A stretch of 34,138 bases of DNA. It comes from a virus. Both the position numbers and the translations under genes were made by a program. Positions 10,021-30,005 of this stretch are shown piece by piece (the first letter of the stretch is position 1; each line of letters starts with the position of its first letter). The stretch lies in IMG/VR virus record IMGVR_UViG_3300023179_000298, positions 1 through 34,138 of that record. One strand, written 5' to 3'. The notes below the pieces were generated by a model that worked only from the letters and a program-made list of their open reading frames with translations, searched no databases and was not told where the DNA came from.

Positions 10021-11751
10021 ATGAACAAAACAACAAGCAATGAATCTCAACCTATTGAAGTAACTTTTGGTCAAGACGCACATGAACAATTGTTAGCAGG
10101 AGCTGAAATCCTTTATAAAGCTGTTAAAAGCACAATGGGTCCAAGTGGTCATAACGTTATTATTGATAACGGACAAACAGCCCCAATAATCACTAAAGAC
10201 GGTGTTACAGTCGCAAAAAGCATAAATCTCAAAGCTAAACTTCCTAGTATTGGAGCAGAACTTATCAAAGAAGTAGCTAGCAAAACAAATGAACTTGCTG
10301 GTGATGGTACAACCACCGCTACTGTTCTTGGTTATGCTATGCTTAAGCAAGGAATCAAAATGACTGCCACAGGACGTTCTGCGATTGAAATCAAACGTGG
10401 AATGGAATGGGCAACAAGCAAAGTTATTGATTGGTTAAAAGAACGTTCTATTCCAGTTCGTAACAATGAAGACATTATTAACATTGGAACTATTTCTGCT
10501 AACGGAGATAGATCAATTGGAGAATTACTAGCACAAGCAATTTCTAAAGTTGGTCAAGATGGCATCATTACAGTTGAGCCAGCAAAAAGCATTAAAACAA
10601 CTTTGGATGTTGTTGAAGGTATGCAGTTTGAAAGTGGATTTGTTGCTCCTTACTTTGTAACAAACCAAGAAAAACTTTCATGTGAACTCACTGATCCATA
10701 TATCTTAATCACAAACAAAAAGATTTCTTCAATTCAAGAAATTCTTCCAGTTCTAGAACTTGCAACAAACTCTAGTCGTCCTTTGCTTATAATTGGAGAT
10801 GAAATTGAAGGAGAAGCTTTACATACTTTAATTGTTAACAAAATGAAAGGTATTCTTTATTCTTGTGCAGTTAAAGCTCCAAGCTACGGTGAAAATCGTA
10901 CAGATATTCTTTCTGATATTGCCTTGGTAACTGGTGGAACCGTTTTTGATGCTTCATCAGAAAAGCAAATCAAGAAAGCAACTGTAGCAGATTTTGGTCA
11001 ATGCAAACGTGTGATTGTTACCAAAAACTCAACAACAATTATTGGGCATGATCAAACACGCAAGGAACTTATTGATGAACGTGTAACTCAACTAAGAACT
11101 GTACTAAGCTCCAACATTGGTATTGATGATCTTAAGCGTGAGAACACCAAGAAACGTCTTGCTAAACTTGCTGGCGGTATTGCTGTTGTTAAAGTGGGTG
11201 GCAGTACCGAGGTAGAGATATTCGAAAAGAAAGATAGAGTTGATGATGCTTTGAATGCAACAGTAGCTGCCGTACAAGAAGGTATTCTTCCCGGTGGCGG
11301 CACTTCATTGTTTTATGCATCTGAATGGCTACAAACTTTAATAAATGATGGAAAAATAACAAAAGACTTAACAGAAGATGAAGTAGCTGGTGCAAGAGTT
11401 ATTGTTGAAGCTTGTCGTCAACCATTAAAAGTTATTGTTGAAAACTCAGGTAAGAGTTCTGATGTTGTAATGAACGAACTTCGTATCTACGAAAAAAAGA
11501 AAGCTGTAGAAATACTACATGATATTGCTGGAGATACTTACCGATCTCCAGAATTTGTTGAGAAAAAAGTTGAAACATTACTTTCAAGACGTATTCGACA
11601 AGGATATGATGCTTCAAAACATCGTTACTGTGATTTGATTGATTCCGGTATTGTTGATCCGCTTAAAGTTGAAAGATATTCTCTTGAACATGCTTGTTCA
11701 GTGGTGGGGTTGTTACTTACCACAAATTGTGTTGTAGTTGTAGAAAATTGA
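10021..11751 (+). CDS. groEL: Phage-encoded GroEL-type chaperonin
   Basis: 576 aa against about 548 in bacterial GroEL. ATP-binding elements are intact: KSTMGPSGHNV (residues 36-45), the DGVTVAKSI block (60-68) and GDGTTTATVL (94-103). In the intermediate domain VDDALNATVAAVQEGILPGGG keeps the Asp equivalent to E. coli D398. The apical domain retains the substrate-binding pattern (SGFVAPYF, KKISSIQEILPVLE, EGEALHTLIVNKM), so it should bind unfolded protein. The extra length is spread over small insertions, and the GGM-rich tail is replaced by LLLTTNCVVVVEN. No GroES or gp31-type co-chaperonin is evident in the window. It probably folds the capsid protein or another large phage protein. Confidence 0.95.
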   Translation: MNKTTSNESQPIEVTFGQDAHEQLLAGAEILYKAVKSTMGPSGHNVIIDNGQTAPIITKDGVTVAKSINLKAKLPSIGAELIKEVASKTNELAGDGTTTATVLGYAMLKQGIKMTATGRSAIEIKRGMEWATSKVIDWLKERSIPVRNNEDIINIGTISANGDRSIGELLAQAISKVGQDGIITVEPAKSIKTTLDVVEGMQFESGFVAPYFVTNQEKLSCELTDPYILITNKKISSIQEILPVLELATNSSRPLLIIGDEIEGEALHTLIVNKMKGILYSCAVKAPSYGENRTDILSDIALVTGGTVFDASSEKQIKKATVADFGQCKRVIVTKNSTTIIGHDQTRKELIDERVTQLRTVLSSNIGIDDLKRENTKKRLAKLAGGIAVVKVGGSTEVEIFEKKDRVDDALNATVAAVQEGILPGGGTSLFYASEWLQTLINDGKITKDLTEDEVAGARVIVEACRQPLKVIVENSGKSSDVVMNELRIYEKKKAVEILHDIAGDTYRSPEFVEKKVETLLSRRIRQGYDASKHRYCDLIDSGIVDPLKVERYSLEHACSVVGLLLTTNCVVVVEN

Positions 11752-28184: not shown

Positions 28185-28253
28185 TACTGATTAGGTTAAG
28201 CAGCAGATAAAATATTACTTGTCTATTTGAATAATACGTGTTATCATCACAAC

Positions 28254-28670
28254 ATGAATGATATTGCACTTATTGATAAATTAGTTGGTTATTGTAATTT
28301 GATAGGTATTGACGTTTGTTTTAAACGTGGATGCCAAGATGCATATATTATAGAAACCCAACTTATTAAAATCAATAGCAATCGAACAAAGCAAAATCAA
28401 GTTTATATTTTGCTTCATGAAATTGGTCATCACAAAGTTGTTAAAAACAAAAAGCTTGCAAAAAAGTTTTCAACATTAAATCAAGCATATTCTCGTAATT
28501 TGTCCAACAAGATTTTAAATCTTGAGGAAGAAGTTATGGCATGGCATTATGGAGAAAACCTTGCGGCAGAACTTGGAATTGAACTTGACTCAAGATACCA
28601 AGTGCTTAAATCAAAATGTTTGAAAACTTATATTGAATCAATCAATACAAAAAAAAGGAATCAACGATGA
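28254..28670 (+). CDS. ImmA/IrrE-like zinc metallopeptidase
   Basis: 138 aa from the ATG at 28254; a TTG at 28227 would add nine residues. The zinc motif is LLHEIGHH (His55, Glu56, His59), followed by a downstream Glu-rich helix LNLEEEVMAWHYGENLA that can give the third ligand. This is the compact DUF955/ImmA-IrrE layout, without the HTH domain some relatives carry. Members usually cleave regulators such as repressors. It overlaps the sigma factor gene by ATGA, so the two are co-translated. A substrate among anti-sigma, repressor or host transcription proteins is inference from this pairing. Confidence 0.78.
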   Translation: MNDIALIDKLVGYCNLIGIDVCFKRGCQDAYIIETQLIKINSNRTKQNQVYILLHEIGHHKVVKNKKLAKKFSTLNQAYSRNLSNKILNLEEEVMAWHYGENLAAELGIELDSRYQVLKSKCLKTYIESINTKKRNQR

Positions 28671-29395
28671 AAACAAATCAAAGCGAAGAAGACATTGAAT
28701 TATTCAAACGTTATCAACAAACAAAAATTCTAGATGAAAATGGAAAAATTTTAAGAGCTGATGTGAAGCTACGAAATGATTTAGCTGAACGAAATGCAAA
28801 GCTTGTAACGTTTGTTATCAATAAGTTTTATAGCAAGAAGCAACGTCACAAAGAACTTAGAAATGATTTACTTCAAGAAGGTCATCTTGGTTTGTTTGAT
28901 GCTATTGATGGGTTTAAGCCAGAGCTAGGGTTTAAATTCAGTACGTATGCAACTTGGTGGATTCGTCAAAGTGTGCATTCATATTTGCTGGATAGAGAAC
29001 CTATGCTTCATGTTCCTAGTCATGTAAGAACCGCAAGAAACAAGTTATATAATGCAGCAAAAGAAAGATCAATATCAATTAAAGACGTTAACAAATCTTT
29101 TCTTACAGAAATTAGTATGACTGAAAAAATGTTTGCATCTGTGAATGCTGCATTAAAAACTAAAGATTGGAATTTTCAATCGTTAGATGAACCATTGTCA
29201 GCAAGTATTGACAAATCTTTAAGAGAGATTATTCCAAGTAATGAACCTGAGTTAAACGTAATTGTTGACAATAAAAAAATTATTGACGCAGCAAAAAAAG
29301 CTTTTTCAAAACTTTCAATCAGGGAAAAATGTGTGTTACTTGAAAGATATGGTATTGATTGTAAATCAATTTTAACAAAGGACAATAGCAAATGA
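28667..29395 (+). CDS. Phage sigma factor lacking region 4.2
   Basis: 242 aa of the sigma-70 family. Region 2 spans residues 66-108 (NDLLQEGHLGLFDAI, then KFSTYATWWIRQSVHSYL), including the aromatic -10 melting face. Region 3 follows (MLHVPSHVR, later QSLDEPLSAS). Residues 203-230 give region 4.1 (AFSKLSIREKCVLLERYGID). The protein then ends (CKSILTKDNSK) exactly where the region 4.2 helix-turn-helix should begin. It should bind host core polymerase and recognise a -10-type late promoter, like T4 gp55. It overlaps the peptidase gene (ATGA) and the next gene (ATGA), whose product has an HTH resembling the missing piece. Confidence 0.9.
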   Translation: MKTNQSEEDIELFKRYQQTKILDENGKILRADVKLRNDLAERNAKLVTFVINKFYSKKQRHKELRNDLLQEGHLGLFDAIDGFKPELGFKFSTYATWWIRQSVHSYLLDREPMLHVPSHVRTARNKLYNAAKERSISIKDVNKSFLTEISMTEKMFASVNAALKTKDWNFQSLDEPLSASIDKSLREIIPSNEPELNVIVDNKKIIDAAKKAFSKLSIREKCVLLERYGIDCKSILTKDNSK

Positions 29396-29679
29396 GTCAG
29401 AAGTATATAACTATTGAAGAAGGTGAAGACTATCGCACCATCGCATCTAAGATGACAGCATTAGGATATAAGATGAATCACGCAACAGCAAGAAACATTC
29501 TTTTATCTGGTATGCGTAATTTCATGCATAATATGTCTGAAGAAATAGAAGGCTATTTATCAGAAGATCAAGTTGATCAACTTATCATGAGACAAGACAT
29601 ACATGAAATATTGGGCGATATTCTTCCTCTGTGTATTGAAGAGGAAAAACAAAAATGCCCGGTGGTAACCCAACAATAA
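29392..29679 (+). CDS. Small HTH protein resembling detached sigma region 4.2
   Basis: 95 aa, starting inside the stop of the sigma gene (ATGA). Residues 5-45 read ITIEEGEDYRTIASKM, then ALGYKMNHATARNILLSGMRNF. This follows the sigma region 4.2 pattern (LT-x-EEI-A-x-x-LG-x-T/S-x-x-R-V-R-x-I...AL-x-x-L) with a three-residue longer turn. Residues 46-95 are acidic and helical. It may be the separate -35-recognition or co-activator subunit, functionally like T4 gp33. Coupled translation would keep the two at similar levels. The HTH match is by eye; a generic small HTH regulator is the alternative. Confidence 0.6.
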   Translation: MSQKYITIEEGEDYRTIASKMTALGYKMNHATARNILLSGMRNFMHNMSEEIEGYLSEDQVDQLIMRQDIHEILGDILPLCIEEEKQKCPVVTQQ

Positions 29680-30005
29680 ACGAATCTCCTTTAGATTTAG
29701 GTGGATTTTTAGCTCGCAGACGAATTCCTATTGAGCTTTGGTTGCTTCAAAAGAACATTGTTACTGTTGAAGCTTTTGAAGCTTTTATGAAAGAAGAACC
29801 AAACTGGACTTATACGAGCGAGTTCGTCAACGAAGTCACTGAAGTTTTAAAATCTATTAAAAAAGAAATAACAGTTGTTGAAGTTAAACCTGTTGTTCTT
29901 GCTGTTGAAGAATTAAAAACATCTTCAGAAGAAGGTTCGGAAGAAAATTCCGAGCCTTTTTTTGTTTCTGCAACCAAAGAAAGGAAAAAATCAAAGCAAT
30001 CATGA
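29655..30005 (+). CDS. Unknown 116-aa protein containing an embedded terminator
   Basis: 116 aa, overlapping the previous gene by 25 bases, with GAGG in that gene serving as ribosome site. Residues 15-75 are helical (LGGFLARRRIPIELWLLQKNIVTVEAFEAFM). The tail is Glu/Ser-rich (SSEEGSEENSEPFF) and then basic (TKERKKSKQS). The SEEGSEENSEPFF stretch is encoded by a perfect intrinsic terminator hairpin. Polymerases that stop there would give a message lacking the stop codon and the downstream small gene. No family was recognised. Confidence 0.6.
   Translation: MPGGNPTINESPLDLGGFLARRRIPIELWLLQKNIVTVEAFEAFMKEEPNWTYTSEFVNEVTEVLKSIKKEITVVEVKPVVLAVEELKTSSEEGSEENSEPFFVSATKERKKSKQS
29934..29963 (+). terminator. 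Intrinsic terminator inside a coding region
   Basis: GGTTCGGAA (29934-29942) pairs with TTCCGAGCC (29948-29956; one G-T pair) across a GAAAA loop and is followed at once by seven T (29957-29963). This is a textbook Rho-independent terminator, 42 bases before the stop codon of the 116-aa gene and in the sense direction. Confidence 0.75.

Follow-up and report, generated by a model that had tools for sequence, protein, structure and literature searches.

The window analysed here is the whole of a virus record of 34,138 bp that also encodes a T4-type portal, a prohead protease and a terminase. It contains a sigma-70 factor gene that stops where region 4.2 should start, followed by an overlapping gene for a small protein that we call the partner (Table 1). 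The coordinates, lengths and frames given in the preliminary description were right, including the ATGA junction and the -1 frame of the partner relative to sigma. Elsewhere in the window, at 10021-11751, lies a full-length GroEL-type chaperonin gene (576 aa, phrog_5725, E 1e-144).

Table 1. Features of the sigma-partner cassette, in window coordinates.
Feature	Position	Strand	Basis
Putative metallopeptidase, upstream neighbour, 4-bp overlap with sigma start	28227..28670	+	phrog_87, weak
Sigma-70 factor, 242 aa, regions 2 to 4.1 only, putative large subunit	28667..29395	+	Pfam, PHROG, phmmer; cut point conserved
Sigma region 2, aa 39-110, core-binding/promoter-melting motif DLLQEG...KFSTYATWWIRQ	28781..28996	+	PF04542 E 1e-12; invariant columns
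Region 4.1, aa ~212-230, KLSIREKCVLLERYGI; last conserved element ahead of the cut	29300..29356	+	phmmer, invariant columns
Shine-Dalgarno site of the partner, AAAGGA, within the end of the sigma gene	29377..29382	+	sequence
ATGA stop/start overlap, translational coupling	29392..29395	+	sequence; -4 overlap retained in closest relatives
Partner, 95 aa, predicted four-helix helix-turn-helix protein, putative small subunit, conserved motif GxxMNHxTARN	29392..29679	+	conservation, AlphaFold2
Predicted helix-turn-helix of the partner, aa 14-51, NHATARN in second helix	29431..29544	+	AlphaFold2
Gene C, third cassette gene, W/F..F..RRR domain and low-complexity charged tail	29655..30005	+	profile E 2e-17, window copy

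Membership of the larger protein in the sigma-70 family is indicated by its match to PF04542 (Sigma70_r2), which scored 48.2 bits against a curated cut-off of 24. The protein also matched PHROG 351 (phrog_351, E 2e-37) and did not match phrog_234, the gp55 family. Alignments obtained with phmmer against RpoS, RpoD and SigA chains ran through region 4.1, in which L216, E220 and R227 are invariant, and ended at query residues 230-236 of 242. The helix-turn-helix (HTH) of region 4.2 was absent from these alignments and no region-4 Pfam model matched the protein, confirming the earlier view of a sigma with regions 2, 3 and 4.1 that ends where region 4.2 should begin. Both genes are under purifying selection: where synonymous changes were numerous enough for the comparison, dN/dS was 0.08-0.15 for sigma and 0.19-0.39 for the partner. 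In all or nearly all split sigmas, the equivalents of sigma-70 Q437 and H455 are retained and those of T440 and E458 are altered. From the known contacts of sigma-70, we take the latter two to be the positions that read the -12 and extended -10 elements; their alteration, with Q437 and H455 kept, suggests that the split sigmas have a promoter element or specificity of their own. The sigma gene of the window is in addition mosaic: within 28667-29679, dS relative to the relative L001 is 0.63 in sigma and 0.02 in the near-identical partner, while the N-terminus of the sigma resembles that of another relative, L003. This pattern suggests that a recombination point lies within the sigma gene.

A Shine-Dalgarno-like site precedes the partner not only in the window but in 59 of 70 distinct relatives. 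In the partner frame, a TAG at 29386 lies two codons upstream of the partner ATG, and the only in-frame slippery heptamer, AAAAAAA at 29293, runs into a stop 14 codons later. Given also the partner's own Shine-Dalgarno site and the variable gap to sigma among relatives, production of a full-length fusion by frameshifting, as the preliminary description had contemplated, is unlikely in the window. A sequencing error as the cause of the split is ruled out by the recurrence of the same stop and partner in relatives on many independent contigs. The distance between the two genes was determined at 69 distinct loci; they overlap or are separated by at most 60 bp in 62 of these and by more than 200 bp in 6. 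At three loci (L010, L013 and L016) whole genes are inserted between sigma and partner and the pair is still retained. The insertions in L010 and L013 are GIY-YIG-like endonuclease genes, as judged by sequence motif.

When viral contigs were searched with the sigma as query, all eight close relatives (74-90% identical) shared both the stop and the overlapping partner; in distant relatives, the partner adjoined sigma or lay one gene away. About 70 distinct more distant loci also show both the stop and the partner. A search for the partner motif that was blind to sigma yielded 80 viral loci, 79 of which had a cut sigma ORF, ending after region 4.1, immediately or a short distance upstream on the same strand; the sole exception, L120, had a partner and no sigma within the flank examined. 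The reverse test, blind to the partner, was based on 80 loci fetched via sigma, and here the partner accompanied 27 of 31 cut sigmas but not a single one of the 49 intact sigmas (Fisher P = 2e-17; near-identical contigs were counted separately). No partner was found beside sigma in about 50 further fetched loci, nearly all of which had an intact region 4.2. The pairing of sigma and partner is therefore real, widespread and near-obligate, which bears out the description of a sigma cut between regions 4.1 and 4.2 and joined to a neighbouring gene. The four cut sigmas whose contigs showed no partner, whether close by or farther away (L051, L054, L055 and L066; two of the contigs are shorter than 13 kb) form a branch of their own in the sigma tree, and the two long contigs among them lack the T4-type portal seen in the others. 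These four sigmas stop exactly after region 4.1 (..RFGIK). The carriers of the pair are a large, mostly uncultured group of T4-related phages; among cultured phages, no protein matched the partner over half its length, and a distant version of the partner was likewise unmatched.

The pair is embedded in a wider cassette. Gene C, for which no Pfam or PHROG family was found, nearly always follows immediately behind the partner. It was present no more than 1.3 kb away in 84 of 107 partner loci, and fetched loci that lacked a partner never contained it. A fourth gene, gene B, is present in 35 of the 107 partner loci. In the more distant group, this gene, which has the motif ExTxLLExxxWDE, is often inserted.

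The preliminary description had suggested looking for homologues in which the two genes are fused, and a search of a genome collection returned two matches, one of which, L194, is a natural fusion. It resides on a contig of 157,908 bp (VFKM01000012.1) from a metagenome bin assigned to Flavobacteriales, which also carries a T4-type portal gene. In a single ORF of 357 aa, a match to the sigma profile (E 3e-51) is followed by one to the partner profile (E 3e-25). Inspected by eye, the stretch that links region 4.1 to the conserved KYVT of the partner has no start codon in frame, and the junction has no Shine-Dalgarno-like site. The flanks correspond to those of the window, with a similar metallopeptidase-like gene before the fusion and gene C and the next genes after it. 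In a phylogeny calculated with IQ-TREE, a supported branch (99/94) sets all split sigmas and the fusion apart from the intact and the partnerless ones; the fusion itself has a long branch and nests beside the subfamily of the window (95/92). Because of this nested position within the split-sigma clade, the fusion, a single record from a metagenome bin, looks like a secondary re-fusion, although a one-base assembly error could have had the same effect, and sequencing reads would be needed to exclude it. No additional fusion was found among 53 further viral loci. The occurrence of both pieces in one polypeptide in a relative suggests that sigma and partner work as a unit.

The second element of the preliminary description was that the partner begins with an HTH resembling region 4.2. 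An AlphaFold2 model based on 70 distinct partner sequences (pLDDT 83.5) predicts helices at residues 14-23, 30-51, 58-65 and 68-88, the first two of which form an HTH: six residues make up the turn between them, and the second, a long helix, opens with an invariant polar motif. The motif GxxMNHxTARN is common to all 70 sequences, with G25, M28, N29, H30, T32, A33, R34 and N35 invariant. The HTH thus stands as a structure prediction, whereas the resemblance to region 4.2 found no support in the HMM and profile comparisons. No meaningful match of the partner was obtained in Pfam, PHROG or the PDB, and Pfam region-4 models matched none of 19 partner members. Comparison of the partner with region 4.2 by hhalign gave a probability of 0.3% and a score below those of column-shuffled controls, which is noise level and lends no support to the partner being a surviving region 4.2. 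Searches with hmmsearch in both directions between partner and region 4 gave no significant similarity either, the only effect being a shift in rank among partners that are not independent of each other. Although NHATARNILLSGMRNF of the partner can be overlaid by eye on the sigma-70 recognition helix TRERIRQIEAKALRKL, we regard this as a lead and not as a test. Structure searches of the PDB with Foldseek and VIA-align returned nothing significant; no gp33 structure was among the matches, and a SigA region 4 chimera (7kuf) appeared at Z scores of merely 2.7-2.9. In a viral structure library, one uncharacterised phage protein of 72 aa was found (A0A6J7X3V2, TM 0.62/0.79, E 0.02). An HTH is what would be expected at this position of a sigma factor, and in the fusion the partner occupies just the place of Sigma70_r4. 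However, compared with Sigma70_r4 its turn is longer (six residues), a KYxT element is added at the N-terminus and two helices at the C-terminus, and HMM or profile similarity is absent. As neither profile-profile comparison nor Pfam revealed a region-4 match, descent of the partner from region 4.2 is unproven, and replacement of region 4.2 by an unrelated HTH protein fits the data equally well.

Sigma factors divided between two proteins are already known from Bacillus subtilis SigO-RsoA and T4 gp55/gp33. SigO and RsoA are two small proteins that jointly constitute one sigma and share the sigma domains between them (PMC8103513), as is proposed here, but this bacterial sigma is cut between sigma-2 (RsoA) and sigma-4 (SigO), whereas the phage sigma described here is cut inside domain 4, between regions 4.1 and 4.2. 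In T4, gp55 and gp33 have been termed a 'split sigma', in which gp33 is a small protein bound to the flap where sigma domain 4 binds, with no sequence similarity to sigma (PMC2988020). The parallel with T4 drawn in the preliminary description is valid as an analogy: in both cases a phage of the T4 superfamily encodes a sigma without the DNA-reading part of domain 4 and a small separate protein that is not sigma-like, and host RNA polymerase is the target, or is presumed to be for the pair of the window. An equation of the two systems was not supported. T4 gp55 retains only region 2-like sequence, whereas the window sigma retains regions 2-4.1, and the gp55 and gp33 genes are 'invariably encoded by widely separated' loci (PMC2988020), in contrast to the adjacent genes and the one fusion found here. 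The partner did not match the gp33 family (phrog_254), for which there was no convincing match in 14 long contigs either. At least 9 of these 14 long relatives encode, far from the pair, a separate protein of ~245 aa with weak but repeated similarity to phrog_234, so the window sigma is unlikely to be the gp55 orthologue, and the promoters served by the pair may belong to a different class. The gp55-like protein (L176-L184, e.g. G001:67996-68265) has a C-terminal helical part, and its gene stands in a conserved neighbourhood of glycosyltransferase, membrane protein, gp55-like protein, a protein of ~120 aa and a large protein. Bacillus phage SPO1 (NC_011421) has 4-bp-overlapping genes, gp33 and gp34, that are annotated as sigma factor and sigma accessory. 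Their order is reversed, with the accessory first, gp34 is a full-length match to the SPO1-type sigma family phrog_1025, and SPO1 gp33 (phrog_13510) is unrelated to the partner. Searches of open-licence papers on phage sigmas without region 4 or 4.2 brought up no account of the present pair, and the cut point between 4.1 and 4.2, the adjacency, the breadth of occurrence and the natural fusion appear to be new.

Adjacency, the cut point and the L194 fusion place sigma domains on two proteins from linked genes, as in a two-subunit sigma, and we consider it likely that the two genes encode one such factor in which the partner functionally replaces region 4.2. The large subunit, comprising regions 2 to 4.1, would dock on the host core RNA polymerase via region 2 and would recognise and melt the -10 element. 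The small HTH subunit encoded by the coupled gene would substitute for region 4.2. At the beta-flap, this subunit and region 4.1 would probably make up a complete domain 4, and the subunit would probably contact DNA upstream of the -10 element. In this way, host polymerase would be redirected to a single class of phage promoters. The conserved cut point, near-obligate pairing, exclusivity, single split-sigma clade and one natural fusion were computed directly; physical contact, flap binding, DNA binding and the promoters used are inferences. Several observations count against this model: HMM and profile-profile comparisons gave no significant similarity of the partner to region 4, four cut sigmas are partnerless, the L120 partner has no sigma in the flank examined, and the fusion is a single record on a long branch. 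In addition, a search for -35-like promoter motifs in 154 kb, composed of the window and six 20-kb stretches of its relative G001, found none and returned merely weak AT-rich palindromes and tRNA-like words. More tentatively, and with somewhat less confidence than doubt, a branch of the T4 superfamily might have swapped region 4.2 for an unrelated HTH subunit that forms a composite domain 4 in trans with region 4.1, constituting a second sigma system beside the gp55-like late sigma, with one lineage having re-fused the two parts.

Other functions of the partner have to be weighed against the two-subunit sigma. It might be a coactivator or clamp-like tether that, like T4 gp33, attaches to the beta-flap or region 4.1 and reads no DNA; sigma would then depend on another activator. 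The partner would resemble gp33, a small flap-binding protein, in lacking sigma similarity, here to region 4 (PMC2988020), but it is outside the gp33 family, which had no convincing match in the 14 long contigs; the T4 sliding-clamp family had none there either, although the clamp controls also matched nowhere. Moreover, the most conserved motif, NHxTARN, opens the second predicted helix of the HTH, as expected of a DNA-reading helix, and we regard a tether as unlikely. Anti-sigma genes commonly overlap the gene of their sigma factor, and four cut sigmas exist without a recognisable partner, both of which would suit an anti-sigma or accessory regulator that is co-expressed with a sigma acting on -10 elements alone. 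However, the partner is restricted to sigmas without region 4.2 and never accompanies intact ones, and in L194 it forms the C-terminal domain of the sigma itself, a position ill suited to an inhibitor, making a regulator less probable still.

That sigma and partner are unrelated operon neighbours travelling together is very improbable. Gene order is kept in phage operons and gene C also travels with the pair, but the pairing follows the presence of the cut and not merely the phage group, it outlasts the insertion of genes between the two, and a fusion exists. The least credible alternative is one broken sigma gene, due to sequencing error or programmed frameshifting. The -1 frame relation and the 4-bp overlap in the window would be compatible with it, but as a general account it is already refuted: the arrangement recurs across numerous independent contigs in which gap sizes differ and genes may be inserted, the partner frame has an upstream stop, there is no usable slippery site and the partner carries a Shine-Dalgarno site of its own.

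A standard review on late transcription in T4 asks why gp55 and gp33 are encoded apart in every case and why a fused form does not occur in nature (PMC2988020). With an adjacent pair and a natural fusion at hand, this question can be addressed in experiments with natural proteins. In addition, the two-subunit sigma proposed here suggests a probable function for a family of small proteins that is not recognised by Pfam or PHROGs and is present in many large uncultured phages.
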